Source of the DNA: Acidobacteriota bacterium
Lineage (GTDB): Bacteria > Acidobacteriota > Terriglobia > Terriglobales > Acidobacteriaceae
Direction of reading: 5' to 3'
Assembly: GCA_013289795.1 (NCBI GenBank)
Contig: JABCZH010000004.1
Span: 186,001 to 250,000, forward strand
DNA: 64,000 nt
Shown one piece after another: positions 777-37,503 of this stretch. The notes under the pieces were generated by a model that saw nothing but the letters and a program-made list of their open reading frames with translations, was not told the origin of the DNA and did not search any database. Position numbers and translations under genes: made by a program. Every line of letters begins with the position of its first letter. Within the stretch, counting starts at the first letter, position 1.

Positions 777-2063
777 TTACTCGATGCGCAACAGCAAGAC
801 AGGCCGAGTGAGGAACTGAAGCGCGTTGATTTCATCCACAGCACGACAAATCAGAGGCTCCGAAACCGCCTCGACGGTGATGCCAAGAGACAATTCATCC
901 TTAGACATGCGAGGCTCCTGCCCCAAGGACTCGAGATGAATATCGTAGCGAGCAATGACCTCTGCCACGCGTGCCACAACACCTCGCTGATCTTTGACGT
1001 TTAGACCTAGATACCAGCGAACCGGGCGGGGATTCTCACAGATCTTCATCTCCGGTGAATCCACGAATCCAACCGCACTCCTCGCCCTCAAATGCCCCTG
1101 TACGAGATCACGACCGATTTCAATCAGATCAGAAACCACGACGGCTCCGGTCGCATCGCCCCCAGCACCGCGACCGTAAAACATCTGGGTTCCAATCTTG
1201 CTTCCGGACACAAAGATCGCATTATTCACCCCCCGAACCCTGGCCAGCATGGAATGGCGGCTCACCATCCATGGCCGCACCGAGACCTCAACTCCGGATT
1301 CGGTGTTCTCCGCCGAACCAATGAGGCGGATGGTGCTGTCGAGACGGTTTACGGCGCGAACATCAGCAGCACGGATCTGGCGGATACCACAAGTGGGAAT
1401 CCGAGATATGTTCAATCTTCCGCCGAAGGCCATTCGTGCAAGGATGCAGAGCTTGTCTCGGCTGTCCACGCCGTCGATGTCTAAAGACGGATCGGCCTCC
1501 GCGTAGCCCTCCTCTTGCGCCTCCTTTAGCGCCTTGTCAAACTCGATGCCACGGTCCTCCATCTGGGTAAGGATGTAATTGGCAGTACCATTCATGATGC
1601 CGTACACCGCGCTCAAACGATCGCCGGTGGTGGACTCGTGAATGACTCGCACAATGGGAATGCTTGACGCTACGCTGGCTTCAAAACCGATCGGCAGATT
1701 CCGCGATGCTGCAAGCGCGAACAGTGCATCGCCATGTTCCGCCAGGAGATTCTTATTGGCTGTCACCACGGGCTTACCCCCTTCCAGGGCGGCGCGAACG
1801 AGTTGCAGAGATTGGTCCGTGCCGCCCATGACCTCGACGACTATGTCTACGTCGGGAGCGGCAACCAGTTCTCTCCAATCGGAAACAAAGCGCGCACCGT
1901 CGGGGATGTCTTGCGGTCTCACCCCTGAGCGCCGGCATATGACTGTGACCTCGAGCCTGATCCGGCTTCGCCGCTCGATAAGGTCGACGTGCTGGGAGAT
2001 AATGCTAGCGGTGGCGCGGCCAACCGCGCCGAATCCGACGATACCGATGCGTACTGGTTTCAT
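777..2063 (-). CDS. hom: Homoserine dehydrogenase
   Basis: Reduces aspartate 4-semialdehyde to homoserine with NAD(P)H, the branch point towards threonine and methionine. The 428-residue protein has a Rossmann nucleotide site at residues 10-15 (GFGAVG), the family motif GKPVVTANKNLLA, and the central segment with GIMNGTANYILTQM and EADPSLDIDGVDSRDK that carries the substrate-binding acidic residues. A C-terminal ACT domain (around WYLGLNVKDQRGVVARVAEV) marks the long, allosterically regulated class. The start was set at ATG 2063 because the nucleotide-binding strand begins right after it; a TTG two codons upstream is possible. A tiny open frame ends two bases upstream. Homoserine feeds metA and metY 12 kb away, but it may equally be the housekeeping copy. 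Confidence 0.93.
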   Translation of the reverse strand: MKPVRIGIVGFGAVGRATASIISQHVDLIERRSRIRLEVTVICRRSGVRPQDIPDGARFVSDWRELVAAPDVDIVVEVMGGTDQSLQLVRAALEGGKPVVTANKNLLAEHGDALFALAASRNLPIGFEASVASSIPIVRVIHESTTGDRLSAVYGIMNGTANYILTQMEDRGIEFDKALKEAQEEGYAEADPSLDIDGVDSRDKLCILARMAFGGRLNISRIPTCGIRQIRAADVRAVNRLDSTIRLIGSAENTESGVEVSVRPWMVSRHSMLARVRGVNNAIFVSGSKIGTQMFYGRGAGGDATGAVVVSDLIEIGRDLVQGHLRARSAVGFVDSPEMKICENPRPVRWYLGLNVKDQRGVVARVAEVIARYDIHLESLGQEPRMSKDELSLGITVEAVSEPLICRAVDEINALQFLTRPVLLLRIE

Positions 2064-2065
2064 CT

Positions 2066-2158
2066 TCAATTTAAAAACTCTTGCTCAGCGCCTTCTTCCA
2101 TCTGCGGCGCCACAATCGTGTCTTGAATTGTAATTGGCGCAGGGTTTTGTGCAACCAT
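2066..2158 (-). CDS. Possible 30-residue leader or small protein before hom
   Basis: An ATG at 2158 opens a 30-codon frame that ends in TGA two bases before the hom ATG, an arrangement typical of translational coupling. The peptide is acidic towards its C-terminus and contains a Thr/Ile/Val-rich middle (PITIQDTIV), faintly like amino-acid-biosynthesis leader peptides. There is no room between its stop and hom for a transcription terminator, so classical attenuation is unlikely. No strong Shine-Dalgarno precedes it, and hom also lacks an obvious one of its own. It could be chance; conservation in related genomes would decide. Confidence 0.3.
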   Translation of the reverse strand: MVAQNPAPITIQDTIVAPQMEEGAEQEFLN

Positions 2159-2283: not shown

Positions 2284-3714
2284 ATGAAGAATTGTCGTCA
2301 GTTTTACATTGATGGTGAGTGGATTGATCCAGTTGAGACTCACGATTTCCAGGTGATCAATCCGACCACCGAGGGGCCGATTGCGACCATCACGCTTGGC
2401 AGTGCAGCCGACGTTGATCGCGCCGTGGCTGGCGCGAAAAGGGCCTTTGAGTCTTACTCAGGAGCAAGCGTGCGAGACCGTCAGGCGCTCCTGCGACGGG
2501 TCATCGATGCTTATCGATCCAAGGCGGGCGAGATGGCTGAAACCATCTCGCTGGAAATGGGATGCCCGATATCGTTGTCGCGTGCGGCTCAGGTACCTGC
2601 GGGCCTATCCCATCTTACTGAGATTGTCAGGGTGCTTGAACACTTCAGATTCGAAGAGCTGAAGGGTTCAACCCTCATGCGAAAAGAGCCAATCGGGGTG
2701 TGCGCACTCATCACACCGTGGAACTGGCCTATGAATCAGGTGGTGTGCAAAGTGGCACCCGCGCTGGCGGCGAGCTGCACCATGGTTCTCAAGCCCAGTG
2801 AGGTAGCACCGCTCTCCGCACGCTTATTCGCGGAGATTCTCCATGAAGCGGGCGTCCCCGCTGGGGTTTTCAATCTGGTAAATGGCGACGGACCGACGGT
2901 AGGAGCAGCGCTTGCAGCTCATCCGGACGTGGACATGGTTTCGTTTACCGGTTCCGTACGCGCGGGTGTCGCGGTAGCGACGAAAGCCGCTCCGACTGTG
3001 AAGCGGGTTACGCAGGAACTCGGCGGCAAATCGGCAAGTATCATTTTGGACGACGCTGATTTGTCGAACGCAGTTCACAAGTGTGTCCAGGCATCCTTTC
3101 GCAATGCCGGTCAATCTTGCAATGCGCCCACTCGCCTGCTGGTTCCACGATCCAAAATGTCCGAGGCGATCGCGGCGGCGAGGCAGTCGGTAGAAGCCAC
3201 AAAGGTTGGTGACCCATTCGCAGCCGATACAGCCGTGGGTCCGCTGGCCAGTAAGGCTCAATTCGAGAAAGTGCAGGGCTACATCCGTAAGGGCATCGAG
3301 GAAGGCGCAACTTTAGTTGGGGGCGGCCCTGGCGTGCCTGACGGTATGGTTAAGGGTTACTTTGTGAAGCCGACCGTGTTCGCTGATGTGCGCAATGACA
3401 TGACCATTGCGCGTGAGGAGATCTTTGGGCCAGTTCTGTGCATCATTGCGTACGTCGATGACGACGACGCTATCCGAATTGCCAACGATACACCCTATGG
3501 CCTGTCAGGTTTTGTAACTTCCGGAAACATCGAACGCGCGCGCGCTGTGGCGAAACGGATTCGCTCGGGGAACGTTCACATTAACGACGCAAAGGTGGAT
3601 TTCTCCGCGTGCTTCGGAGGCTTCAAGCAGTCGGGCAATGGCCGGGAATGGGGCGCGTCTGGATTGGAAGAGTTTCTCGAACTGAAGGCAATGCTTGGTT
3701 ACGGAGCCAAGTGA
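2284..3714 (+). CDS. NAD(P)-dependent aldehyde dehydrogenase
   Basis: Oxidises an aldehyde to the carboxylic acid. The 476-residue protein has all class hallmarks: oxyanion Asn in PWNWP (residues 145-149), the cofactor-site Lys in LKPSE (about 170), FTGS (221-224), general base Glu245 in ELGGKS and the nucleophile Cys279 in NAGQSCNAP, with the late EEIFGPVL motif. Start is ATG 2284; the frame stays open upstream to 2227 but those residues do not look like this family. It is the first plus-strand gene of a four-gene run with aminotransferase, carrier-thioesterase and ThDP enzyme. A plausible job is oxidising the aldehyde made by the ThDP enzyme; the substrate cannot be read from sequence. Confidence 0.9.
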   Translation: MKNCRQFYIDGEWIDPVETHDFQVINPTTEGPIATITLGSAADVDRAVAGAKRAFESYSGASVRDRQALLRRVIDAYRSKAGEMAETISLEMGCPISLSRAAQVPAGLSHLTEIVRVLEHFRFEELKGSTLMRKEPIGVCALITPWNWPMNQVVCKVAPALAASCTMVLKPSEVAPLSARLFAEILHEAGVPAGVFNLVNGDGPTVGAALAAHPDVDMVSFTGSVRAGVAVATKAAPTVKRVTQELGGKSASIILDDADLSNAVHKCVQASFRNAGQSCNAPTRLLVPRSKMSEAIAAARQSVEATKVGDPFAADTAVGPLASKAQFEKVQGYIRKGIEEGATLVGGGPGVPDGMVKGYFVKPTVFADVRNDMTIAREEIFGPVLCIIAYVDDDDAIRIANDTPYGLSGFVTSGNIERARAVAKRIRSGNVHINDAKVDFSACFGGFKQSGNGREWGASGLEEFLELKAMLGYGAK

Positions 3715-3879
3715 GAGAGCAGGAGGCGCAACCTAAGCAGGGCGCGACCCTGCCGCGAGCCGAAACTTTGGAGACATCCCATCGATGCGAGAGTAACCGA
3801 CTCCGCCGACTATTGGCTGGACATAGAGCGTTTTATTGCATATGCTTATCTTGACCGGAAAGAAAATCGCGAAGCCTCC

Positions 3880-3909
3880 CTTTGCGATGGGTCGTGAACA
3901 TCCGCAAAG
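3880..3909 (+). other. Hairpin in the leader of the aminotransferase gene
   Basis: Bases 3880-3886 pair with 3903-3909 (7 base pairs) and 3887-3889 with 3899-3901, with a single bulged C at 3902 and a 9-base loop. It stands about 48 bases before the Shine-Dalgarno of the aminotransferase and 165 bases after the aldehyde dehydrogenase stop. No T tract follows, so a simple terminator is unlikely; it may be an RNA-stability or leader structure, or chance. Confidence 0.3.
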
Positions 3910-3956
3910 CAGCATCCCCCACGCGAGATTGCTCGATAATGTAACGCCGGGAACCC

Positions 3957-3962
3957 AAGGAG
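3957..3962 (+). promoter_or_regulatory. Strong ribosome-binding site that fixes a TTG start
   Basis: AAGGAG sits 7 bases before TTG at 3970 and no ATG or GTG in the right frame is better placed. The first in-frame ATG (codon 26) lies inside the conserved N-terminal region of the aminotransferase, so TTG is the likely start. Confidence 0.7.
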
Positions 3963-3969
3963 AAATCGA

Positions 3970-4833
3970 TTGCCACTCGGAAGCGGCTGGTCAAAAACCT
4001 GGACATTTTTCGAAGGAGCTTGGCACGAGGGCAATATCGGAATCATGGGTCCGCGAACCCATGCTGCCTGGATGTGTTCAGTGGTCTTTGACGGAGCGCG
4101 TGCGTTCGAAGGCGTCACCCCCGACCTTGACCTTCATTGCGCTCGCGTGAATGACTCCGCCAAAAAACTTTTTCTGAAGCCCACAGTGTCGACTGAAGAG
4201 TGGGTAAGACTCGCCCGTGAGGGGATAAAACGCTTTGATAAGGAAGCGGCGCTTTACGTAAGACCGATGTACTGGGGGGAAAAAGAAGGGCCTTGGGTTC
4301 AAGCGCACGATCCCGAGTCGACGCAGTGGTGTCTTTCGATCTACGAGGCGCCCATGCGGACACCCAAAGGCTTCTCGATCACACTGTCTCCTTTTCGCCG
4401 GCCAACCCTGGACACGATGCCAGTCGATGCCAAGGCCGGCTGTCTCTACCCCAATAACGCGCGCTCGCTTTTTGAAGCGCAGTCCCGCGGCTTCGACAAT
4501 GCCATCGTTTGTGACGTGGCAGGAAACGTCGCTGAACTCTCCACTTCCAACGTGTTTATGGCAAAAGAGGGAGTCGTGTTTACTCCTATCCCGAACGGAA
4601 CATTCTTGGCAGGCATCACTCGCCAGAGAGTCATCGGACTCCTACGTGACAACGGCGTCACCGTGGTCGAGAAGACACTCCGCTACGAGGATTTCGAGAA
4701 GGCCGACGAGATTTTTGCCACGGGAAACTATTCCAAGGTGGTTCCGGCCACTCGAATCGGTGACCGCTCACTTCCCTTCGGCCCCTTTTACACGAGGGCC
4801 CGAGAACTCTATTGGGCATTTGCGCATTCATGA
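3970..4833 (+). CDS. Class IV (branched-chain type) aminotransferase
   Basis: A PLP enzyme that exchanges the amino group between an amino acid and a 2-oxo acid; the branched-chain/D-amino-acid family is indicated. In 287 residues there are the N-terminal FDGARAFEG motif (40-48), an Arg in YVRPM, the PLP Lys155 in DAKAGCLYPNNARS, and the Glu189-containing segment GNVAELSTSNVFM that contacts the PLP ring nitrogen. The usual S/G-N-Y after the lysine is replaced by GCLYPNN, so substrate preference may differ from IlvE. TTG start with a strong Shine-Dalgarno. It probably supplies or consumes a 2-oxo acid for the ThDP enzyme downstream; 4-amino-4-deoxychorismate lyase is a less likely alternative. 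Confidence 0.85.
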   Translation: MPLGSGWSKTWTFFEGAWHEGNIGIMGPRTHAAWMCSVVFDGARAFEGVTPDLDLHCARVNDSAKKLFLKPTVSTEEWVRLAREGIKRFDKEAALYVRPMYWGEKEGPWVQAHDPESTQWCLSIYEAPMRTPKGFSITLSPFRRPTLDTMPVDAKAGCLYPNNARSLFEAQSRGFDNAIVCDVAGNVAELSTSNVFMAKEGVVFTPIPNGTFLAGITRQRVIGLLRDNGVTVVEKTLRYEDFEKADEIFATGNYSKVVPATRIGDRSLPFGPFYTRARELYWAFAHS

Positions 4834-4897
4834 CCGGACCACACCAGCAACGTGCAACGCCTTGGAGTATGCTCCATTTCCACTGCGTGGGTGAATT

Positions 4898-5932
4898 ATG
4901 AACCCGATGCCGACTTCCACGATGGTCGAGATGCTCACCCCGATTTGGCGGCGCTTGCTGCAACGCCCCTCCGTCGAGGTAGAGGACAACTTTTTCGATC
5001 TTGGGGGAGATTCCTCGTTAGCGCTCCAGCTATTCAACGAAATCGCGGTCGCGTGCGGTAGAGAACTTCCGCCGGTAACGATCTACGTCGCGCCTACTAT
5101 TGCTGCTCTCGCCGCCGTGTTGGAAGAGCCCGAAGAAATACGGCTACCGCCGCTGGTGCTACTCAAGGATGGTGCAGAGCAGCCACCGCTCTTCGTCACC
5201 CACGGCCTGGGCGGAAGCGTCATCGACTTCTTCCAGGTGGTAAAACACATTCGGACGTCGCACCCGATCCAAGGGATGCAATCCAGGGGTATAGACGGTA
5301 CGGAAGAGCCATTCGACCGTATCGAAGATATGGCCGAGTTCCATCTGGATGCGATTCGGAAGGTGCAGCCGCACGGACCTTATGTGCTGGTGGGCTATTC
5401 GCTCGGTGGGTTGGTAACGTTTGAGATGGCGCAACGACTGGTTGCCTCTGGCGAGAAAGTGGCACTGCTGGCCATGCTGGATTCCTACCCAGACATACGC
5501 TACTTATCACTCGCGCAGAGGGCGCTCCTGGTGACACGCCTGACGACCCGCCGCGCCGCCACGGCGATGAAACTGCCTGCAGGCGAGGCTTTTTCTCTCA
5601 TCGTCCGCCCTTCTCGGCGCCGCTCCACTGCGCCCAAGGTTTCCTATCAGCTGCCGGTTGATGTGACTCTATCCCCGGCCATGCAGCGCGCACGGGAGCG
5701 CGCGTATCTGGCGTTGACCCGCTACAAGCCCAGGTTCTATCCCGGCAAGATCAGGTTCGTAAGAGCGGAAAACCCCACCGACTTCCCTGCTGATCCGGCT
5801 GCAGTTTGGGCTCACCTGGCGGAAAAGTTCGAGGTGGAAACTGTGCCGGGCGATCATCTGGAAATCATGTCTACCCATTACGAGAAGCTGGCATCTGTGC
5901 TTTCCCGCTATGTCGAGGAAGCGCTCCGTTAG
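4898..5932 (+). CDS. Free-standing carrier protein-thioesterase didomain
   Basis: Two domains of non-ribosomal peptide/polyketide machinery without any adenylation, condensation or ketosynthase domain. Residues about 8-77 are a peptidyl/acyl carrier domain with the phosphopantetheine Ser39 in FFDLGGDSSLALQL. Residues about 95-344 are a type I thioesterase: GYSLGG with nucleophile Ser168, Asp195 in MLDSYPD and His320 in PGDHLEIM form the catalytic triad. It would hold a thioester intermediate and release it by hydrolysis, cyclisation or transfer. The gene lies 64 bases after the aminotransferase and 58 before the ThDP enzyme, likely one transcript. Its substrate probably comes from the AMP ligase encoded at 10.1-11.7 kb; this partnership is inferred. 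Confidence 0.9.
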   Translation: MNPMPTSTMVEMLTPIWRRLLQRPSVEVEDNFFDLGGDSSLALQLFNEIAVACGRELPPVTIYVAPTIAALAAVLEEPEEIRLPPLVLLKDGAEQPPLFVTHGLGGSVIDFFQVVKHIRTSHPIQGMQSRGIDGTEEPFDRIEDMAEFHLDAIRKVQPHGPYVLVGYSLGGLVTFEMAQRLVASGEKVALLAMLDSYPDIRYLSLAQRALLVTRLTTRRAATAMKLPAGEAFSLIVRPSRRRSTAPKVSYQLPVDVTLSPAMQRARERAYLALTRYKPRFYPGKIRFVRAENPTDFPADPAAVWAHLAEKFEVETVPGDHLEIMSTHYEKLASVLSRYVEEALR

Positions 5933-5990
5933 CCCACCCGCTTGAGCGTTTGTTTTTGCCAACCTCCCGAGAGTCTGTAAGGATAACGAG

Positions 5991-7535
5991 ATGAACGGGG
6001 CAGAGAGTCTAATTCGCACGCTGCTCGCAGGCGGGGTTGACGTGTGCTTTACGAACCCCGGCACATCAGAAATTCATCTTGTCGCCGCGCTTGACCGGAT
6101 CGCAGAGGTGCGTTGTGTGTTGGGCCTATTCGAAGGTGTGGTTACCGGCGCGGCAGACGGTTACGCTCGCATGGCCGAGAAGCCAGCCAGCACCCTGCTG
6201 CATCTCGGCCCTGGACTCGCGAACGGCTTGGCGAATCTGCACAACGCGAGCCGTGCGCCAGTACCGATCGTCAATCTGGTTGGCCAACATCCGATCTCTC
6301 ATCTGCCTCACGACACGCCCCTCGTCTCAGACATCGAAGGCATTGCGAAGCCATATTCCAAATGGCTGCGGACTTCTCGAGCGTCGTCCGACATAGGTCA
6401 TGACGCCGCGGAAGCCCTGGTTGCTGCTCGTACGGCGCCTGGCCAGATAGCAACGCTAATCGTCCCGGCAGACGTCTCATGGAGCGAAGGCGGTTCCATT
6501 GCTTCCGTCCCTACTCCGCCTAAAACTCCGCTTCCGGATTCTCGGTCCATCGAACATGCAGCCGCGATGCTCCGGTCAGGTTCGCGGACCGCAATCCTGA
6601 TGGCCGGAAATGCGCTTTACGGCAACGGACTGGTTACGGCGGGTCGCATCGCGGCGGCCACGGGGGCAAAGCTGCTGGCTCCTTATCCCTTCACTCGTTT
6701 GCAACGCGGCACGGGGATAGCGAAGGTCGATCGGGTTCAATACGTCCTCGAATTAGGGATCGAGCAATTTAAGGAGTTTCGTCAGCTGATTCTGGTGGGC
6801 GCGCAGGCTCCGGTCGCATATTTCGCCTATCCCGGAAAGAGCAGCGTATTCACTTCGCCGGAGTGTGAGATCCATACGCTGGCGATTCCTGGCGAAGATT
6901 ACGTCGGTGCACTTGAGGCGCTGGCGGCAGCCTTGTCGGTACGCGGCACTGAATTATCAGCGGAAACAGGGGAAAGACCATCCTTGCCCAACGGAGAAAT
7001 CACGTTGCCGGGTTTGGCCGCTGTTGTCGGTGCGCTTCTACCCGAAAACGCCATCGTGGTTGATGAGTCCATGACATCGGGTCGCGGGATGATGGCTACA
7101 ACCAAGGGCGCTCCGCCGCACGACTGGCTTGGGAACACCGGCGGCTCGATCGGAATTGCCCTCCCGCTGGCTGTGGGCGCTGCAGTAGCCTGCCCAAACC
7201 GGAAAGTCTTGTGCCTGACTGCCGATGGCAGCGCCATGTATACACTCCAGGCGCTGTGGACAATGGCACGCGAAGTTCTGAACGTCACGACCGTGGTTTT
7301 CGCGAACCGAGAATACGGAGTCCTAAAGCGTGAGTTCTCTTATTTGGAAGCAGGCAGTCCTGGAACTCGCGCTGCGAGCCTGTTTGATATAGGACGTCCG
7401 GATCTTGATTGGACACTACTGGCGAAGGGAATGGGAGTGCCCGCCACGCGGGTCACTTCATTGGATGCATTCGGGAAAGCGTTACGGGCCGGGTTGGAGA
7501 GTGAGGGACCGACGCTGATTGAGGTGCCACTGTAG
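5991..7535 (+). CDS. ThDP-dependent 2-oxo acid decarboxylase / acetolactate-synthase-like enzyme
   Basis: A 514-residue thiamine-diphosphate enzyme with the three domains of the acetolactate synthase/benzoylformate decarboxylase superfamily. Glu48 in LGLFEG is the cofactor-activating glutamate; the ThDP/Mg motif is ADGSAMYT followed about 25 residues on by the Asn of FANREY, with ADG instead of the usual GDG. His72 in LLHLGPG matches the active-site His70 of benzoylformate decarboxylase, but no match for its His281 is evident. Annotation pipelines usually call this subfamily acetolactate synthase large subunit. With aminotransferase and aldehyde dehydrogenase beside it, decarboxylation of a 2-oxo acid to an aldehyde, or aldehyde carboligation, is the most sensible guess. 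Confidence 0.8.
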   Translation: MNGAESLIRTLLAGGVDVCFTNPGTSEIHLVAALDRIAEVRCVLGLFEGVVTGAADGYARMAEKPASTLLHLGPGLANGLANLHNASRAPVPIVNLVGQHPISHLPHDTPLVSDIEGIAKPYSKWLRTSRASSDIGHDAAEALVAARTAPGQIATLIVPADVSWSEGGSIASVPTPPKTPLPDSRSIEHAAAMLRSGSRTAILMAGNALYGNGLVTAGRIAAATGAKLLAPYPFTRLQRGTGIAKVDRVQYVLELGIEQFKEFRQLILVGAQAPVAYFAYPGKSSVFTSPECEIHTLAIPGEDYVGALEALAAALSVRGTELSAETGERPSLPNGEITLPGLAAVVGALLPENAIVVDESMTSGRGMMATTKGAPPHDWLGNTGGSIGIALPLAVGAAVACPNRKVLCLTADGSAMYTLQALWTMAREVLNVTTVVFANREYGVLKREFSYLEAGSPGTRAASLFDIGRPDLDWTLLAKGMGVPATRVTSLDAFGKALRAGLESEGPTLIEVPL

Positions 7536-7567
7536 AGCCTGGCGGCTCGAGGTCAAAGCGAGGTTTT

Positions 7568-8791
7568 TCACATAATTACGGCAAGACTTTTCAGGCCCCT
7601 GAATCCAAAGGTAGGCGCATACTCCGGCCGCGGGCCAGTGAGCTTCATCTTCGGAAAGCGCTGTACCAGGTTCAGGAGCGCAATCTGTCCCTCTAGCCGC
7701 GCGAGCTGGGCTCCGATGCAAAAGTGCAGACCTGCACTGAAAGCCAGGTGTTGGTTGTTCAGCCTCTTCAGATCTAAGTCATTCGGTTCCTGAAATTGTT
7801 TCGGATCCCGGTTGGCCGCACCGAGCATGCATAGAACCGTCCATCCCTTTCGGATCTGCTGCCCGCAAACGTCGATATCTTCTTTGAGCACTCGCGCAGT
7901 GAATTGTACGGGGCTCTCGTAACGCAGAAGCTCCTCCACAGCGGAGCGGATTATCTCCGGCCTTTCTCGCAGTTCAGCCGTCTGCTGCGGGTGCTGGAGA
8001 AGCGTGTACATGCCGTTGCCGATCAGGTTTCGAGTTGTCTCGTGCCCTGCGAAAAGCAGCGCGATGCACTGCGCGTATAGCTCTTCTTCGGTCAGCACTT
8101 CTCCTTCTTCTTCGATGTCGATCAGAAGGCTAATCAGGTCGCTTCCTTTGTTGCGTCGCCTCTCTGCCACGGTCTTTCTGAAGAATTCGGTTAACTCAAT
8201 GAGCGCATTTTGCGCCGCGTGCGCCTCTTCCACGGTACGATTTGGATTGCCTCGAAACACCGCGATGGCCCGCGACCATTCGACGAATGTGTCGCGCAGT
8301 TCCTGCGGTATTCCAAGCATTTCCAAAATGATGCGCACGGGCATTGGATTTGCGAAATCGCGCATGAGGTCGACTTCCGAGCCATGCTGTAGCGGCTTTA
8401 GCATCTGATCGACAATGGCCTCAACTTGCGGACGCAATCCCTCAACTGCTGCGGCCGAGAATCCTTTATTGAGAAGTTTGCGCAGCCGGGTGTGCTCCGG
8501 CGGGTCCATGAAAATCAGCCACAAGCCCAGCATGCGGGCGAGTTCGGCGAACTCGGATTGCCGGCTGAGCGGCAGAGACAGTAGCATCTGCTGTGCGCGT
8601 TTCGCAGACAACCTGGGGTCCTTGGCAATCGAGGAACACTCGGCGTGGCTGACAATCGACCATACCGGCCATTTGCTGCCGACATCCAAATAATGCACCG
8701 GGCCTTCCTCGTGCAGGCGAGCGTACATGGGATACGGGTCTTGCAGAACTTCGTCGCTGAAAACAATTGCTTTCTTCGGCGCGATGGACAA
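7568..8791 (-). CDS. Cytochrome P450 (bacterial class, first of two)
   Basis: Haem monooxygenase of 407 residues. Visible hallmarks are the I-helix oxygen-binding motif AGHETTRN, the K-helix ExxR (EELLRYESP), and the haem-ligand loop FSAGLHFCIGAQLA with axial Cys358. The N-terminal FMDPPEHTRLRKLLNKGF block is typical of soluble class I bacterial P450s that need separate ferredoxin partners; none is seen nearby. The start is assigned to TTG 8791 because AAGGGG at 8799-8804 sits seven bases upstream; the open frame begins 45 bases further up and would overlap the preceding gene. It converges on the ThDP enzyme gene, 32 bases apart. A role in hydroxylating a carrier-bound or free acyl/aminoacyl intermediate is inferred from context. 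Confidence 0.9.
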   Translation of the reverse strand: MSIAPKKAIVFSDEVLQDPYPMYARLHEEGPVHYLDVGSKWPVWSIVSHAECSSIAKDPRLSAKRAQQMLLSLPLSRQSEFAELARMLGLWLIFMDPPEHTRLRKLLNKGFSAAAVEGLRPQVEAIVDQMLKPLQHGSEVDLMRDFANPMPVRIILEMLGIPQELRDTFVEWSRAIAVFRGNPNRTVEEAHAAQNALIELTEFFRKTVAERRRNKGSDLISLLIDIEEEGEVLTEEELYAQCIALLFAGHETTRNLIGNGMYTLLQHPQQTAELRERPEIIRSAVEELLRYESPVQFTARVLKEDIDVCGQQIRKGWTVLCMLGAANRDPKQFQEPNDLDLKRLNNQHLAFSAGLHFCIGAQLARLEGQIALLNLVQRFPKMKLTGPRPEYAPTFGFRGLKSLAVIM

Positions 8792-8798
8792 CCTTACC

Positions 8799-8804
8799 CC
8801 CCTT
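8799..8804 (-). promoter_or_regulatory. Ribosome-binding site deciding the P450 TTG start
   Basis: The minus strand reads AAGGGG here, seven bases before TTG at 8791. Using this start avoids overlap with the stop of the lipocalin-like gene (8809) and puts the first residues just ahead of the conserved P450 N-terminal block. Confidence 0.5.
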
Positions 8805-8808
8805 GAAA

Positions 8809-9246
8809 TTACGAGCCGACCGGCACACGCTGCCAAATCAATTCAACTGTTTGGACTTCTCCATTGATCCGCGTCGGTGGCGTGATCAATACGATTTGAT
8901 CACCCTGGAATTTGACATTGCGGATCAGATCCCTACCCACGTAGTTCTGAATCGATGAGATGTCGACGTGATGGATTACCTTATCACCATCGAAAACGTA
9001 TCGCCCCGCATAGGCAAGGAACGTCTTAAATGCCTCAGCCTGCTCCTCCAGCCTCCCGCCTCCAGGAGAAAGCGACTTTCGGCCGTCATAGCTAATCAAG
9101 GCGGTCACCCTGCCGTCCGCATATGTGAGAAGGCCCACGGGACTGGCACCGTACGGAGCTTCATTTCGCTCCCCGCCCGATGTTGTGCTTGAGGCAGATA
9201 CCAACCTCCATGTACCCACAAGCTTATCGGTGCTGTGCCCGGTCAT
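8809..9246 (-). CDS. Lipocalin-like domain protein
   Basis: A 145-residue protein starting at ATG 9246, preceded by AGAGGA at good spacing; the open frame continues upstream to 9339 but without family-like sequence. The opening LVGTWRLVSA and the later SPVGLLTYADGRVTALI and AGRYVFDGDKVIHHVDIS are characteristic of the lipocalin-like family 5 (beta-barrel proteins near tailoring enzymes in many bacterial clusters). No signal peptide or membrane segment is seen, so it is probably cytoplasmic. It lies 17 bases upstream of the P450 in the same direction and is likely co-transcribed. Members may bind or isomerise small hydrophobic substrates; no catalytic residues can be named here. Confidence 0.75.
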   Translation of the reverse strand: MTGHSTDKLVGTWRLVSASSTTSGGERNEAPYGASPVGLLTYADGRVTALISYDGRKSLSPGGGRLEEQAEAFKTFLAYAGRYVFDGDKVIHHVDISSIQNYVGRDLIRNVKFQGDQIVLITPPTRINGEVQTVELIWQRVPVGS

Positions 9247-9282
9247 TCCGATTCCTCTTTGGGTTTTACGTTTAATTGGCGT

Positions 9283-9312
9283 TTGACGGGAGATTAACGC
9301 AAAGCCTACACT
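9283..9312 (+). promoter_or_regulatory. Candidate sigma-70 promoter of the SDR gene
   Basis: TTGACG at 9283-9288 and TACACT at 9307-9312 are separated by 18 bases, a fair match to the housekeeping consensus, about 55 bases before the SDR start codon. It lies in the 120-base gap between the divergent lipocalin-like and SDR genes. Predicted by eye only. Confidence 0.35.
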
Positions 9313-9366
9313 CTGCGGTTCCATTCTCAGACGTATCATTGAAACACATTGTTCGCGAAGGAACCT

Positions 9367-10143
9367 ATGGCGACGGAATTGGAAGGCAAAGTTGGGCTGG
9401 TGACTGGCGGGACCTCGGGCATTGGCCGCGAGACGGCAGTACTTTTCGCGAAGGCGGGAGCTAAGGTGGTGGTTGCGGGAAGGCGCGTACCGGAGGGCGA
9501 GGAGACCATCGAACTGGTGCGTGCGGCTGGCGGCGAGGCTTTATTTGTGAAGACCGACGTTTCGAAGGCCTCCGAAGTTGAAACGCTCATTCAGAAGGCA
9601 GCGGAGAGATTTGGCCGCCTAGACGTGGCCTTCAATAACGCCGGAATCGAAGGGGCCTGGTCGCCCATTGTCAGGCAATCGGAAGAAGACTGGGATCGGA
9701 CCATCGCGATCAATCTCAAAGGCGTCTGGCTCTGTCTGAAGTACGAAATCCGGCAGATGCTTAAGCAGGGTGACGGCGGAGCCATTGTGAACATGGCGTC
9801 GATTACGGGCCTAGTTGGTGCTGTAGGGGCAGCAGCGTACAGTGCAAGCAAGCATGGTGTGATAGGGCTGACGCAGACCGCTGCGTTGGAAAATGCCAAA
9901 AGCGGGATTCGGATCAACGCAGTGTGCCCCGGATTTACCGAAACTCCAATGACGGATCGGCTGTTTCGCATTCCGAAGATTCAAAAGAACCTTCTTAGTT
10001 GCCACCCTATCGGCCGTTTCGGAAGACCGACGGAAATCGCTGAGGCTGTGGTGTGGATGTGCTCGGAGCGCGCATCGTTCATGACGGGCCAATCCCTGGT
10101 TGTTGACGGCGGCTTCCTGGCGGGGCCCAATTCTCCGAGCTAG
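9367..10143 (+). CDS. Short-chain dehydrogenase/reductase (SDR)
   Basis: NAD(P)-dependent oxidoreductase of 258 residues in the classical SDR fold. Cofactor motif TGGTSGIG at residues 13-20, structural NNAG at 90-93, and the catalytic set Ser145, Tyr158, Lys162 (YSASK) are all present; the C-terminal CPGFTETPM and DGGF segments are also typical. ATG 9367 is preceded by GAAGGA. The gene stands alone on the plus strand inside an otherwise minus-strand group, and its stop codon abuts the stop of the AMP ligase gene with no spacer. It probably reduces a ketone or oxidises an alcohol formed by one of the neighbouring P450s; the arginine-rich GRR after strand 2 suggests NADP(H). Confidence 0.88.
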   Translation: MATELEGKVGLVTGGTSGIGRETAVLFAKAGAKVVVAGRRVPEGEETIELVRAAGGEALFVKTDVSKASEVETLIQKAAERFGRLDVAFNNAGIEGAWSPIVRQSEEDWDRTIAINLKGVWLCLKYEIRQMLKQGDGGAIVNMASITGLVGAVGAAAYSASKHGVIGLTQTAALENAKSGIRINAVCPGFTETPMTDRLFRIPKIQKNLLSCHPIGRFGRPTEIAEAVVWMCSERASFMTGQSLVVDGGFLAGPNSPS

Positions 10144-11682
10144 CTACACCTTTTGCCTCATGTCATCGGCAATCTTTGCCAAGTCGGCTTTCGCAACTTT
10201 TCCGCTCGGCGTCATGGGCATGGTTGAGACAAACAGGATGTGTGACGGTCGCTTGTACGGGGCGAGGTGTTTTGCAGCGTATTCTGCCAGATCAGTCTCC
10301 GTAAGATGCGAGCCTGTCGCCGGTTGTACAAAGGCCAGAATCTCCTCATCTTCTTGTGTCGCTCTGCCGACCACAGCTGACTGCACCACGGAGGGATGGG
10401 CATTTAGCACGGCCTCAACCTCAGCCGGGTAGACGTTGAAGCCAAGTCGGATGATGAGATCCTTCGTGCGTCCGACAATGAAGAGATTCTCTTCCTCGAA
10501 GCGGGCAAGATCACGGGTATTAAACCACCCTTCCGCATCGATCGCCGCGGCTGTTTCGTCGGGCGCGCGATAGTAGCCCTTCATGATGTTGGGCCCGCGC
10601 ACCCATAGCTCACCGACTTCCCCTACAGGCACTGGTTGACCCCCAGGCCCAACCAATTTGGCTTCGACTCCAGGAAACATCGGACCGACTGAGTTATCCG
10701 CACGCGGCGGCGCATCGACCCTCACTTGCGCTATGTTGGGAGAACACTCGGTGATGCCATAACCGTGATGGAGGGGCAGGCCGAACAGGCCTTCCACAGA
10801 CGACTTGATGGCAGGGGGCAGCGGGGCTCCTGAACAGGAAATGATCCGCAGCGCGGGAAACTCGAAGGATTGCACCTTTCTCATTTTCGCGTATTGCAGG
10901 AAGAGAGAAAACATGGAGGGCACACCCAACATGATCGTTATTCGCTCTCTCTCAAGCGCCACCCGTGCAGCCACGGGATCGAATCTCGGCTCAAGATAGA
11001 CGGTTGCTCCGCTGAGCAGGGTTCCCAGGAAAACTATCGAGAGCCCAACGATGTGCGACAACGGCAGAATTCCGTAGAGGCGGTCTTCGGAGTTCAAAGA
11101 CCGGATCTTCGCGGCGCCTCTAGCCGAAAAAAGCAGATTGTCGTGCGTCAACATGACGCCTTTGGGGAGGCCAGTGGTGCCCGACGTATAGATGAGCGCG
11201 GCAACGCGAGTCCCAATCTCAGCATCAATCGGCTCAGGTTGGACATTTTCGTTAAGAGGGCCGAGACCTATTCGACCTAGATCGCGCACCTCTTCCAGCG
11301 GTGCCCCGTGATGCTTCGCGTGTTCAGTCGCATGAATGGACACGCTTGTCGTGTAAATTACGCGCCGGGCTTGGCAGTGATCACGGACCGCATCGATCTC
11401 GCGTCCCGACAAACGCGGATTCACGGGCACTGGCCAGGCGTCCAAGCTGGCGACTGCCAGTAGAACCGCCGCAAATTCCCGACAGTTTTCACCGACGATC
11501 ATGACTCGATCGCCGGCTCGCACGCCTGAGCCGCGGAGCCACTCCGCCGTCTGCGAGATGACTGCCACGAGCTCGCGATACGACCAGCTGCCGTTCGGAT
11601 CAACAATAGCTTTGTGATCGGGCAAGCGGTCTGCCCACGGCTTCACGACATCGGAGATGCGCGTGGCTGCTGAGGCGTTCAT
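10144..11682 (-). CDS. AMP-forming acyl-CoA/acyl-ACP ligase
   Basis: ANL-superfamily enzyme of 512 residues that activates a carboxylic acid as acyl-AMP and passes it to a thiol. Residues 165-175 carry the P-loop YTSGTTGLPKG; further on are GYGITECSP (A5), the WFNTRDLARF and GRTKDLIIRLGFNVYP hinge motifs (A7-A8) and the C-terminal catalytic Lys in MTPSGKVAKADL (A10). The acyl carrier gene lies 35 bases upstream in the same direction, so the thiol acceptor is probably that protein rather than CoA. No condensation or reductase domain is fused. The acid substrate is unknown; an acid from the aldehyde dehydrogenase is a reasonable candidate. The 3' end meets the SDR gene tail to tail. Confidence 0.9.
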   Translation of the reverse strand: MNASAATRISDVVKPWADRLPDHKAIVDPNGSWSYRELVAVISQTAEWLRGSGVRAGDRVMIVGENCREFAAVLLAVASLDAWPVPVNPRLSGREIDAVRDHCQARRVIYTTSVSIHATEHAKHHGAPLEEVRDLGRIGLGPLNENVQPEPIDAEIGTRVAALIYTSGTTGLPKGVMLTHDNLLFSARGAAKIRSLNSEDRLYGILPLSHIVGLSIVFLGTLLSGATVYLEPRFDPVAARVALERERITIMLGVPSMFSLFLQYAKMRKVQSFEFPALRIISCSGAPLPPAIKSSVEGLFGLPLHHGYGITECSPNIAQVRVDAPPRADNSVGPMFPGVEAKLVGPGGQPVPVGEVGELWVRGPNIMKGYYRAPDETAAAIDAEGWFNTRDLARFEEENLFIVGRTKDLIIRLGFNVYPAEVEAVLNAHPSVVQSAVVGRATQEDEEILAFVQPATGSHLTETDLAEYAAKHLAPYKRPSHILFVSTMPMTPSGKVAKADLAKIADDMRQKV

Positions 11683-11717
11683 CGAAATCGGGGGCTGATG
11701 TTGGTTCGTGGTCGTGG

Positions 11718-11981
11718 CTAGGTCCTGCCGCGAAGCTTGCTTTCAATAAAGGCAACCGTGCTTTTCACAGTGGCAAAGTTGTCAGTCGTTACTTCTTCGT
11801 CATCAACTGTCAGGGTGAAGCGCTCTTGCACGAACACGACCAGTTCGATGACTCCCTGGGAGTCGATTACATTGCCCAGCAACGGCGTATCGTCGCTGAG
11901 CGCTTCGCTGCGGCCAAAAAGAAACTTCTCGGTTAGGAAGTTACGAATTTCTTGTTCGATCTCTGTCGCCTGCATTTGCAT
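11718..11981 (-). CDS. Free-standing acyl carrier protein
   Basis: An 87-residue acidic four-helix carrier protein. The phosphopantetheine attachment site is Ser41 in NVIDSQGVIELV, preceded by DDTPLLG, and a C-terminal helix-4 region with NFATVKSTVAFI; the DSQG form resembles carriers paired with stand-alone ligases rather than fatty-acid AcpP (DSLD). AGAGGA stands four bases before ATG 11981. It sits between the AMP ligase (35 bases downstream) and a P450 (71 bases upstream), all in one direction, an arrangement known for loading an acid onto a carrier and oxidising it there. Charging and hydroxylation on this carrier are inferred. Confidence 0.9.
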   Translation of the reverse strand: MQMQATEIEQEIRNFLTEKFLFGRSEALSDDTPLLGNVIDSQGVIELVVFVQERFTLTVDDEEVTTDNFATVKSTVAFIESKLRGRT

Positions 11982-12052
11982 ATATTCCTCTGGTATTCGC
12001 GGACAAACTCTGTCAGCAGAAGTCGAGGGGAGGGTGTATTACCTTTTGAAAA

Positions 12053-13405
12053 TCAAGCCGCCCCCGAGGTTCCCGTTATTTTGGCCTCGGGGTACATGTT
12101 GAAGTCATACTTACTACGCAGGTTCACGCCGGCCTCGAGCTCGAGTGGCCTGGATGGAATGTACCGCAATCGCAGTGATCTTCCAATTGTCATCAGGTGA
12201 ACCTGCATTTCCATGCGGGCAAAATGCTCTCCGATACAGTTTCTCGGGCCAGTGGAGAAAGGGATGGTCGCCAGTCGATGCCGACGTTTTGCATTGTCAG
12301 GTCGAAAGCGATCTGGGTTGAAGCGGTCTGGTTCCTCCCATAAATCGGGATGCCGCTGAATGAAGTAGGGAGGAACGTAGACTTCAGTTCCAGCCGGAAC
12401 GAAGTACTCTCCAAGCCGATCGTCACGCAGCGCTTTACGGGTTAGCAGCCAACCAGCTGGATACAAGCGCATCGTTTCTTCGATGATTTGACGCGTATAG
12501 AGAAATCGCGGCAAATCAACGAACTCGAAACCGCTCGTCAGAGTGTCGAGTTCATTCGATAACTTTCGTTCGACATCCGGGTGCTGAGAGATCAGATACC
12601 AGGCCCAATTCAGAGTACTCGCCGTGGTCTCGTGACCAGCAACGATCATCGTCAGAACCTCGTCGATCAATTGGCTGTCTGGCATCAATCGGCCGTTTTC
12701 GGGGTTGCGTGCCTGCAGGAGCATGCCCAAGGCGTCAGTGGATATCGCGGTATCCTTCCGCCTCCGCTCGATGACTTGGAGAATGGTCTTCCCTAGAGCG
12801 CGGAACGATACAGCAAAATCCATGTTGCGCGCCGGTTCTTGGGAGAGCAGATCGAAATGAAAGCCAACCAGTTCGTAATCGTCGCCCAGAATGAAGCGGA
12901 GCACAACCTCCAGGGCCATGCTGCTGACGTCCCGTGTGACATTGACACTTTCGTTTCTCTCGGCTGCCAACTGCCACTTCCTGAGCAGTTTCGCATTGAC
13001 GTAGGTAATCAGTTTAGTCGAACGCCCGATTGATTCATGATTGAACGCTGGCTGTATCATTCTCCTCTGCCGTTTCCAGAGCTCACCTTTGCTCACCATC
13101 AGGCCGTTTCCAAGGAGTAACGCCACGCGCCTGATGGCCTGGCCTTTTACGTAGTTCTGCCAGTTCTCGACCAGGACATGATGCGCAAACTCGATGTTCC
13201 TGATCGCATAGACGCTGGTCTCATAGACAGAGGCCTTGTAGATGTCACCGAAGGCTTCGAACTGACGACCCATCCATTCCAGGAGGTCTTCGTTCGGCCT
13301 ATATTTCTCTTGGGGCCCGGGCGGTATGCGTTCGTGTTCGACTGCCGTGTCGGCCAGCGTCTCCACACGCGCGTTCGACGGATTGACGGGCGATCGTCCA
13401 GTCAT
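12053..13405 (-). CDS. Cytochrome P450 (second, CYP4/CYP102/CYP110-like)
   Basis: A 450-residue haem monooxygenase clearly different from the one at 7.6-8.8 kb. It shows an I-helix AGHETTASTLNWAW, K-helix EETMRLYP, the meander EEPDRFNPDRFRPD and the haem loop FSTGPRNCIGEHFA with Cys390. These forms, and the N-terminal PPGP.EKY block, are typical of fatty-acid or isoprenoid-oxidising families related to eukaryotic microsomal P450s. No membrane anchor is evident. It heads the run P450, acyl carrier, AMP ligase, so oxidation of a carrier-bound acyl chain is likely; a free fatty acid or terpenoid substrate remains possible. Confidence 0.9.
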   Translation of the reverse strand: MTGRSPVNPSNARVETLADTAVEHERIPPGPQEKYRPNEDLLEWMGRQFEAFGDIYKASVYETSVYAIRNIEFAHHVLVENWQNYVKGQAIRRVALLLGNGLMVSKGELWKRQRRMIQPAFNHESIGRSTKLITYVNAKLLRKWQLAAERNESVNVTRDVSSMALEVVLRFILGDDYELVGFHFDLLSQEPARNMDFAVSFRALGKTILQVIERRRKDTAISTDALGMLLQARNPENGRLMPDSQLIDEVLTMIVAGHETTASTLNWAWYLISQHPDVERKLSNELDTLTSGFEFVDLPRFLYTRQIIEETMRLYPAGWLLTRKALRDDRLGEYFVPAGTEVYVPPYFIQRHPDLWEEPDRFNPDRFRPDNAKRRHRLATIPFSTGPRNCIGEHFARMEMQVHLMTIGRSLRLRYIPSRPLELEAGVNLRSKYDFNMYPEAKITGTSGAA

Positions 13406-13437: not shown

Positions 13438-14031
13438 TCACTTAGACGCGCGATCACGCCCCTCGGGTTGACGCTTTACGCGCAACTTCAGGCCTTCCAC
13501 AAACTCTTCGTATCGATGTTCTGGCGTTAATGGAACAGTCGCAATGCCCAAGGCTTCGGCAGCAGGAGGTCCCCAAAAGGTATGTGGCGGTACATTGCGG
13601 CTCACTACCGTGCCAGCTCTGATCACCGCCCCTTCCCCGATTACCACATTAGGCAGGATTACACAGTGCGGCCCGATAAAGACGTCCTTTTCAATGACAA
13701 CTTTTCCGTTGTTTATGGATCTTCTGGGTCCAGAGTAAAAGTGAGCAATTATCGAGGTTCTGAGGCCGATCGAGCAGTTATCCCCGATGGTTACGTCAGT
13801 CGGGTGTATTTCGTCAATGTACACAAGCTGGCCCACCCAGACATTGCGTCCGATCACAACTCCGCGCAGCCGTTGCAGCCACGGTCGCAAACTAAATCCC
13901 CCAGGTGCCACAAAAGCTACCTTAGCCGTAAGCCTACTGAGCAGACTTGGCAACCTCAACGGCCCCTCCCTCGCATTGCAGAAATGGCGGAGATTGGACG
14001 CATCATAGAGCATGGGGCATCCGGTGACCAT
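13438..14031 (-). CDS. Left-handed beta-helix (hexapeptide) acyltransferase
   Basis: About 197 residues with the imperfect hexapeptide repeats of trimeric beta-helix acetyltransferases: VVIGRNVWVGQ, VTIGDNCSIG, VVIEKDVFIGPHCVILPNV, VIGEGAVIRAGTVVSRNV, and a GPPAA cap. The IIAHFYSG His in the middle is a candidate catalytic residue as in the maltose/galactoside/serine acetyltransferases. It lies between the P450 (32 bases downstream) and metA (23 bases upstream), same strand. It could acylate the product of the cluster or act as a serine/homoserine-type acetyltransferase in sulfur-amino-acid synthesis; sequence alone does not decide. A second start at ATG 14013 is possible. Confidence 0.8.
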   Translation of the reverse strand: MVTGCPMLYDASNLRHFCNAREGPLRLPSLLSRLTAKVAFVAPGGFSLRPWLQRLRGVVIGRNVWVGQLVYIDEIHPTDVTIGDNCSIGLRTSIIAHFYSGPRRSINNGKVVIEKDVFIGPHCVILPNVVIGEGAVIRAGTVVSRNVPPHTFWGPPAAEALGIATVPLTPEHRYEEFVEGLKLRVKRQPEGRDRASK

Positions 14032-21037: not shown

Positions 21038-21073
21038 CTCTCTTCCCTCCATTTCTTCTTCAGCACGGGTGGC

Positions 21074-35446: not shown

Positions 35447-35450
35447 GTGT

Positions 35451-36660: not shown

Positions 36661-36699
36661 CTTATTTCGCTAATTCAACCGCTGATAAAGGTGCACTGC

Positions 36700-37455: not shown

Positions 37456-37503
37456 ACTTCTTGTGTCTGCATGCACTCGCTAATAGCTTTCACATCGCGA
37501 ACG

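Follow-up and report, generated by a model that had tools for sequence, protein, structure and literature searches.

The genes for an acyl carrier protein, an AMP-forming acid ligase and a carrier-thioesterase didomain lie close together in the genome of an Acidobacteriaceae bacterium, raising the question of whether they form a pathway of their own and, if so, from which precursor the acyl group would be made. The window analysed here is a stretch of 64,000 nucleotides of this genome. The first-pass annotation had listed nine genes at 2284-13405, and all of them were found by Pfam, NCBIfam and PDB matches (Table 1). It had also proposed that the carrier proteins work without assembly-line partners, and indeed not a single condensation or ketosynthase model, either of which would mark an NRPS or PKS, was matched in 54 selected ORFs of the window, a selection that excludes shorter ORFs and the ORF truncated by the window's left edge. 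Ligase-like matches inside long NRPS-sized frames are found on other contigs of the genome. We give about even chances to the reading that the locus encodes a dedicated biosynthetic pathway, in which a homoserine-derived amino acid would be converted to a 2-oxo acid, an aldehyde and an acid that is finally loaded onto a carrier.

Table 1. Genes of the set and their domain matches.
Feature	Position	Strand	Supporting match
Homoserine dehydrogenase, second copy	777..2069	-	PF00742 2e-58
Aldehyde dehydrogenase (ALDH)	2284..3714, alternative start 2227	+	PF00171 (Aldedh) 1e-158
Class IV aminotransferase (AT4), PRK13356 group	3970..4833	+	PF01063 (Aminotran_4) 2e-43; NF009896 470 bits, cut-off 262
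Carrier-thioesterase didomain (T-TE)	4898..5932	+	PF00550 (PP-binding), PF00975 (Thioesterase)
ThDP enzyme, PRK07586 group	5991..7535	+	TPP_enzyme_N/C; NF005760 733 bits, cut-off 363
Cytochrome P450 a	7568..8836	-	PF00067
Lipocalin_5 protein	8809..9339	-	PF13924 2e-26
Short-chain dehydrogenase (SDR)	9349..10143	+	PF13561 (adh_short_C2) 2e-68
AMP-forming acid ligase	10144..11682	-	PF00501 (AMP-binding) 3e-90
Free acyl carrier protein (ACP)	11718..11981	-	NCBIfam and PDB matches
Cytochrome P450 b	12053..13405	-	PF00067 7e-75
Hexapeptide-repeat acyltransferase-like protein	13438..14031	-	PF00132 2e-15
MetA-type homoserine O-acyltransferase (MetA-like)	14055..15122	-	PF04204 5e-69; NF003776 390 bits, cut-off 358
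O-acylhomoserine sulfhydrylase-type PLP enzyme (OAHS)	15113..16432	-	PF01053 1e-129; TIGR01326 621 bits, cut-off 495
Flavin monooxygenase (FMO)	16488..17726	-	PF13738
Aspartate kinase, second copy	25916..27391	-	PF00696 8e-53

Borders and operon layout

The borders first drawn are too narrow, as the operon of the ligase and the ACP runs on to the FMO gene. The genes for FMO, OAHS, the MetA-like protein, the hexapeptide protein, P450 b, ACP and ligase form a head-to-tail run with intergenic gaps of -10 to 71 bases, probably a single operon, and the earlier right border falls mid-way through it. The MetA-like acyltransferase, OAHS and FMO belong to the gene set, and so, probably, do the flanking genes for a second homoserine dehydrogenase and a second aspartate kinase; a polysaccharide locus comes after them. 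Elsewhere, the hexapeptide protein has only a weak relative (35-40%; L046/G295), placed outside the ligase operon. A promoter and terminator scan stayed at chance level. The Lipocalin_5 gene had been overlooked in the first pass.

Distribution of the core genes

The notion that these genes act as a functional set is supported by their distribution. Of 300 family genomes sampled, 15 carry the ligase. In a panel of 43 genomes, orthologues of the ThDP enzyme, AT4 and ALDH occur in 14, 12 and 9 of the 15 ligase-bearing family genomes, respectively, versus none of the 22 family comparators. With kinship ignored, Fisher's test returns p values of 2.5e-7 for AT4, 4e-5 for ALDH and, if a cut copy in G119 is counted as present, 1e-10 for the ThDP enzyme; this copy, truncated at a contig end (79 residues), is not among the 14 given above. 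Fourteen of the comparators are recorded as ligase-negative, and the other eight may not have been in the ligase-search sample; against those 14, the p values, again ignoring kinship, are 2e-7 for the ThDP enzyme (14/15), 9e-6 for AT4 and 5e-4 for ALDH. Scattered and unlinked homologues in relatives, a pattern initially regarded as contrary to a common pathway, were not seen for close orthologues. Linkage is common, and although core orthologues sit on other contigs in some genomes, the unlinked genes still co-occur, as AT4 and ALDH do in G130, G295 and G301. Ligase relatives that stand alone all fall outside the clade of the cluster itself, at 54% identity or below, and the 62 distant ligase loci (L050-L112 without L074) offered no helpful common neighbourhood.

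The set is not invariant. ALDH orthologues are absent from six of the 15 ligase genomes, four of which are 95-97% complete (G022, G047, G160 and G224). Moreover, in a second family of the order, four genomes retain the MetA-like and OAHS genes and lack orthologues of AT4, ThDP enzyme and ALDH, which implies that the latter three are not always needed; three of these four genomes carry a ligase relative of 48-49% identity. Beyond the phylum, the alphaproteobacterium Methylocapsa acidiphila holds AT4, ligase, ThDP enzyme, ALDH, thioesterase, FMO, MetA-like protein and OAHS within about 18 kb. From the list originally drawn up, it has AT4, ThDP enzyme, ALDH, ligase and a thioesterase without carrier domain, and no ACP orthologue was found in it at E 1e-6. 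A Wzz-domain protein is encoded between its ALDH and thioesterase, and a flippase between its thioesterase and FMO.

The ligase and the carrier proteins

The free ACP has no Pfam match, and its best NCBIfam match, NF052616 (1e-12, 48 bits), is below the cut-off of 130; it does match PigG-type carrier structures (4e-9). At the position expected for the carrier serine the ACP reads VIDS and the T-TE reads GGDSS, which we take to be the carrier-serine sites from the familiar motif. In the motif alignment, both the carrier serine and the GYSLGG nucleophile motif of the T-TE are intact.

The ACP gene is located 35 bases upstream of the ligase, and an ACP of at least 49% identity is found in nine of the 15 ligase-bearing family genomes versus none of the 22 comparators. 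Mapped onto the ligase tree, the presence of the ACP requires a single change over 25 labelled rows, against a mean of 8.1 in shuffles, none of 500 being as low, and one change likewise when only the 18 genome-level rows are used. In this mapping, the no-ACP labels of L038, L039, L040 and L048 apply at locus level only, G322a is labelled no-ACP despite an ACP on another contig of its genome, and L044, L049, L050, L074 and three outgroups carry no label. The ligase and the ACP are co-inherited as linked genes, a pattern of descent and no proof of loading. In the scheme proposed below, the ligase would load the ACP; a use of CoA would be compatible with its nearest solved relatives, namely CoA ligases and the A domain of an NRPS.

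The second carrier is that of the T-TE. Where the T-TE of an Acidobacteriota locus could be read, four of seven members of the ACP clade have lost the carrier serine or domain (lost in G224, G144, G301 and L074; kept in the window, G160 and G130) versus one of nine other rows (lost in G024; kept in G047, G251, G295, G148, L038, L039, L040 and L048; p = 0.08). In this count, G130 and G047 are scored as carrier kept, though they also hold copies without it, L074 is placed in the ACP clade with its own ACP status hidden by the contig start, and G119, G202, G322, Methylocapsa and the second family are excluded, as is G022, whose T-TE is truncated by the contig end. We considered and set aside a rule by which a free ACP always goes with loss of the T-TE carrier: it is only suggestive at this p value, and the window retains both carriers.

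A putative homoserine branch

At E 1e-10 the MetA-like gene is absent from 44 of 51 genomes; the seven that have it, its own among them, are also those with OAHS orthologues (69% or more), and the two lie on the same contigs. In 13 of the 15 ligase genomes, both genes are found on the contig of the ligase. The identity of OAHS is 84-93% in window-type loci (79% in L040) and 69-73% in the second family. These are the enzyme families of methionine biosynthesis via MetA/OAHS; unlike a housekeeping methionine locus, however, the branch is patchy, and further homoserine dehydrogenase, aspartate kinase and cystathionine-synthase-like genes lie at other sites of the genome. On this distribution, in which OAHS tracks the MetA-like gene exactly, such a locus is rejected. 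The other homoserine-dehydrogenase-like matches in the genome are 34% and 30% identical, and another aspartate kinase, on contig C6, is 40% identical. Among relatives, G202 has a homoserine dehydrogenase homologue (41%) adjoining the ligase and an aspartate kinase homologue (36%) on the same contig; G251, too, has an aspartate kinase homologue (65%) on its ligase contig. The second copies of both enzymes would presumably serve precursor supply. The MetA-like protein has no plasmid match at 1e-30, and its alignment with B. cereus MetA did not decide its acyl specificity.

Optional and accessory genes

Among solved sequences, P450 a is nearest to that of entry 3ejb, a biotin-biosynthesis P450. 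In the sequence stretches read around related loci, P450 a and Lipocalin_5 are present in some, Lipocalin_5 often together with P450 a and SDR; these three genes are an optional group, and P450/SDR tailoring is accordingly optional. Of the ligase operons seen, only that of the present genome includes P450 b, which was never the best label among related loci. FMO is encoded near OAHS and the MetA-like gene in relatives and in Methylocapsa. Its model (pLDDT 77.6) is closest to the N-hydroxylases KtzI/PvdA (Z 31.6, 3.0 A over 367 residues, 18% identity), with the disulfide reductase YpdA also at Z 28; a sulfur reading of the homoserine branch leaves the likeness to N-hydroxylases unexplained. In some relatives, the gene U444 lies between the MetA-like and ACP genes; it has no Pfam or PDB match and, by eye, seems to resemble a GNAT.

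A proposed pathway

The route first suggested, from AT4 through ThDP enzyme and ALDH to the ligase, is chemically coherent in its order, but it is incomplete, as it did not include the homoserine branch. In the extended scheme that we infer, aspartate kinase, homoserine dehydrogenase, the MetA-type acyltransferase and the sulfhydrylase-type PLP enzyme would produce an amino acid by replacement of the activated hydroxyl of homoserine, the simplest guess being methionine or another gamma-substituted homologue. AT4 would convert this amino acid to its 2-oxo acid, and the ThDP enzyme, whose nearest solved structures are those of benzoylformate decarboxylase and which is probably a 2-oxo acid decarboxylase to judge from its relatives, would yield an aldehyde one carbon shorter. 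ALDH would oxidise the aldehyde to an acid, and the ligase would transfer the acid to a carrier, namely the free ACP here and the T-TE carrier in the sister branch. The acyl group, which would be 3-(methylthio)propionyl if the amino acid is methionine, might be oxidised by P450 a and SDR in some species, released or transferred by the thioesterase, and may end up on the exported polysaccharide whose genes lie alongside.

Each step by itself is ordinary chemistry. That they add up to an unreported assembly route, with a duplicated homoserine branch, shortening to an acid, a stand-alone or thioesterase-fused carrier, P450BioI-like oxidation in some species and polysaccharide attachment, common to Acidobacteriota and a methanotroph, is rather unlikely. 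Genome-mining rules keyed to ketosynthase or condensation domains would probably overlook a compact pathway of this kind, in which there is no assembly-line condensation. If the chemistry holds, methionine-type precursor synthesis would be tied to carrier-bound acyl chemistry and possibly to polysaccharide decoration; as a named alphaproteobacterial strain carries the gene set, the pathway is open to testing.

Alternative explanations

The fate of the acyl group is the subject of one alternative that is compatible with the pathway proposed above, namely that an acyl or amino acyl substituent decorates a polysaccharide, placed there by acyltransferases of the FemAB/GNAT or AT3 type. This is somewhat unlikely, yet a real possibility: the window continues into a locus of the Wzx/Wzy type with a flippase (38448), an O-antigen-ligase-domain protein (48011), a UDP-sugar dehydrogenase (56363), an initiating sugar transferase (60757), glycosyltransferases and heptose-type genes, the Methylocapsa core is interspersed with polysaccharide genes as described above, and exosortase or glycosyltransferase genes lie beside several relatives' loci. 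However, no such neighbour is as constant as the core, neighbourhood alone does not demonstrate attachment, and in G028 a block of FMO, ATP-grasp and u28697 is accompanied by no closer ligase than a 31% paralogue, and neither MetA-like nor OAHS genes are present there. It is quite unlikely that FMO instead N-hydroxylates an amine from the homoserine branch, to which the carrier-bound acyl group would be joined in a hydroxamate-like product. The fold comparison (KtzI, PvdA, DesB-type and putrescine N-hydroxylases at Z 30-32) and the FemAB-like or U444 genes near several ligase loci fit this idea, but these closest rows are 11-18% identical, the model confidence and the YpdA match given above weaken the comparison, fold alone shows no function, and no NIS-type siderophore synthetase was matched in the 54 window ORFs.

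A CoA-based degradation, in which AT4, the decarboxylase, ALDH and an acyl-CoA ligase break down an amino acid while ACP and T-TE serve another product, seems similarly improbable. The CoA ligases among the nearest solved structures would agree with it, as would the wider ligase relatives that stand alone in proteobacteria and the plasmid relatives of the ThDP enzyme and AT4, which occur in unrelated contexts (four neighbourhoods, one without annotation). Against this stand the co-inheritance of the ACP with the adjacent ligase, a dedicated homoserine-synthesis branch that would be odd for catabolism, and the lack of any acyl-CoA dehydrogenase or hydratase model match in the 54 window ORFs. 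Finally, housekeeping methionine genes and unrelated oxidases could be chance neighbours, and the high conservation of OAHS in window-type loci does resemble that of a core gene; with a MetA-like gene missing from most genomes, OAHS orthologues tracking it and a core common to another phylum, this is extremely improbable.

Comparison with known systems

As first noted, the set could not be matched to any characterised pathway, and a literature search over titles and abstract openings found no description of it. Single-module A-T-TE enzymes of the ralfuranone and polyporic acid/allantofuranone type use an aminotransferase-fed 2-oxo acid and have no condensation or ketosynthase domains. The locus shares with them an adenylating enzyme, a carrier and a thioesterase, and its co-occurring aminotransferase might supply a 2-oxo acid. 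Here, ligase, ACP and T-TE are three separate proteins rather than a fusion, and the 2-oxo acid would be shortened by the ThDP enzyme and ALDH ahead of its activation. Fusaric-acid-type clusters comprise the Fub aspartate kinase, a homoserine acyltransferase and Fub7. They have their counterparts here in the dedicated homoserine acyltransferase, the sulfhydrylase-type PLP enzyme and an aspartate kinase, and OAHS matches FUB7 structures at 456 bits, its nearest solved relative being the sulfhydrylase 8sf5 (513 bits); unlike in those clusters, no polyketide synthase or ketosynthase was matched in the 54 selected window ORFs. One exosortase query found no relative in the window and the 10 kb to its right, and the FemAB gene of the window reaches 113 bits with TIGR03019, for which the cut-off is 260. 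A likeness to the exosortase-linked N-acyl amino acid clusters of Craig et al. 2011, as far as the account in the paper citing them (PMC8776678) allows, lies in acyl-type chemistry near exosortase and polysaccharide genes in some relatives.

Gene Content and Layout of the Window

The genome totals 4.67 Mb, and the contig that carries the window is 375 kb long. Each of the nine genes that the first-pass annotation had listed at 2284-13405, as a carrier-protein pathway without condensation or ketosynthase domains, was found by domain, family-model and structure-sequence matches, and ketosynthase or condensation models matched none of 54 selected open reading frames spread over the window, in agreement with the claim. 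This interpretation was partly right, but its borders had been drawn too narrow, as the homoserine-branch genes lie outside. The nearest named relatives of the AMP-forming acid ligase are Acidobacteriota, labelled mostly Acidobacteriaceae, Acidobacteria or Terriglobia.

Features of the window (gaps in the order of the genes named)
Feature	Position	Strand	Intergenic gaps (bases)
Homoserine dehydrogenase	777-2069		
Aldehyde dehydrogenase (ALDH), aminotransferase, carrier-thioesterase didomain protein (T-TE), ThDP enzyme		plus	255, 64, 58
P450a-lipocalin and SDR	between the plus- and minus-strand groups		
Flavin monooxygenase (FMO), O-acylhomoserine sulfhydrylase-type PLP enzyme (OAHS), homoserine O-acyltransferase (MetA-like), hexapeptide protein, P450b, free acyl carrier protein (ACP), ligase		minus	55, -10, 23, 32, 71, 35
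Relative of OlsC-like lipid hydroxylase	20408-21052		
FMO and ATP-grasp pair	22241-24714		
Mostly polysaccharide locus (flippase, Wzy-type protein, sugar transferase, glycosyltransferases, UDP-sugar dehydrogenase)	~24.8 kb to window end		
Aspartate kinase	25916-27391		
GHMP kinase, HAD phosphatase, SIS isomerase, nucleotidyltransferase (consecutive)	34379-37476		

Predicted Chemistry and the Homoserine Branch

The aminotransferase belongs to the PRK13356 group and the ThDP enzyme to the PRK07586 group. The nearest solved relatives of the latter are benzoylformate decarboxylase, whose Glu47 and His70 are both matched in the alignment. The ligase is nearest to CoA ligases. These enzyme-group and nearest-relative assignments make a chain of aminotransferase, decarboxylase, ALDH and ligase plausible; if the amino acid were methionine, which is a guess, the acyl group would be 3-(methylthio)propionyl. 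P450a is closest to the P450 of entry 3ejb, which also contains an acyl carrier protein chain, a feature that fits a carrier-bound substrate. OAHS is nearest to true sulfhydrylases (8sf5, 7kb0), with FUB7 next, and the predicted structure of the FMO (pLDDT 77.6) is closest to N-hydroxylases. The steps are ordinary enzyme chemistry and the novelty lies in their combination; the gene set, said earlier to match no nameable cluster, likewise could not be assigned to a characterised family.

MetA-like and OAHS genes (at least 69% identity) were found in the identical 7 of 51 genomes, where the two share a contig. The ligase contig also carries both in 13 of the 15 genomes with a ligase orthologue, the two exceptions having short ligase contigs (14.1 kb in G160; 13.2 and 5.9 kb in G322). 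Since the window's genome holds an additional aspartate kinase (40% identity), further homoserine-dehydrogenase-like matches (34% and 30%) and cystathionine-synthase-like genes at 141-145 kb of its contig C1 and elsewhere, the simplest reading is that the branch from aspartate through homoserine to O-acylhomoserine is dedicated to the pathway.

Distribution Across Genomes

The gene set is conserved, patchy and common to more than one phylum. Of 300 sampled family genomes, 15 carry a ligase orthologue (the window's own included); they represent 11 of 79 genera. Co-occurrence was scored in a panel of 43 genomes, made up of the 15 ligase genomes, 22 further family members, four of a second family of the same order with a MetA-like/OAHS locus, Methylocapsa and one Acetobacteraceae metagenome-assembled genome (MAG). 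Orthologues of the ThDP enzyme, aminotransferase and ALDH were present in 14, 12 and nine ligase genomes, respectively, and in Methylocapsa, in none of the 22 family comparators and, at the limits used, in none of the four second-family genomes; the MAG has the ThDP enzyme, at 50% identity, and neither of the others. The ACP (at least 49% identity) was found in nine ligase genomes, in none of the 22 or the four, and neither in Methylocapsa nor in the MAG; weaker carrier matches (at most 38%) are present in several genomes. The aminotransferase misses include the fragmented genomes G119, G022 and G322, and ALDH is absent also from genomes that are 95-97% complete (G022, G047, G160, G224). Co-occurrence does not reflect linkage alone, because in G130, G295 and G301 both aminotransferase and ALDH are on different contigs from the ligase, as is the ThDP gene in G130. 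The Fisher tests of co-occurrence make no correction for shared ancestry, and one genus (g7) accounts for five of the 15 ligase genomes.

Candidate Carrier Proteins

The ligase tree has 32 rows: 10 ACP-bearing, 15 without ACP and seven unlabelled. A single change parts ACP presence from absence (support 88/87; 88% of bootstrap trees), against a mean of 8.1 changes under shuffled labels, none of 500 shuffles being as low as observed; ligase and free ACP are thus inherited together. The window retains an intact T-TE carrier, as do G047, G148, G251, G295, G160, one of three G130 copies, the loci L038, L039, L040 and L048, and G036. The carrier serine or whole domain is lost in G301, G224, G144, locus L074, the other G130 copies, G028, a second G047 copy, G024 and Methylocapsa, and the association of this loss with ligase clade is suggestive only (p = 0.08). 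Tree and carrier pattern favour, without proving, that the ligase would load a carrier protein. T-TE relatives (46%) with a substituted carrier serine occur at L024:9879-10892 and L022:9562-10569, two loci where a close ligase orthologue was not seen.

Related Loci and Other Observations

In Methylocapsa acidiphila B2, about 18 kb hold, in order, aminotransferase, ligase, ThDP enzyme, ALDH, ATP-grasp, Wzz-domain protein, thioesterase, flippase, methyltransferase, FMO, MetA-like and OAHS. The second family has MetA-like and OAHS in four genomes, three of which (G062, G068, G070) show a ligase relative of 48-49% identity between the MetA-like and OAHS genes; in this family the ligase may use a different acid. 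A second type of T-TE was seen in three of the four (G062, G063, G070). Locus L050:1-6767, from an Acetobacteraceae MAG, is a sister arrangement: MetA-like and OAHS run divergently to the genes for a carrier-domain protein, a DUF3050 (haem-oxygenase-like) protein and the ligase.

A second type of T-TE protein, not in the window, occurs at L038:15299-16408, in L039, L048, G148, G251, G322 and G024, and in second-family loci L121-L123. Most copies read GYC rather than GYS at the thioesterase nucleophile position (GYR in G251), and from this motif it is probably a cysteine thioesterase, a class associated with strained-ring formation.

The OlsC-like relative scores 237 bits, under the cut-off of 450, and lies close to the core in G024 and G148. 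The FMO and ATP-grasp pair recurs in the window's and related polysaccharide loci. The four consecutive genes from GHMP kinase to nucleotidyltransferase resemble a set for nucleotide-heptose, and G295 holds a block 61-80% identical to them.
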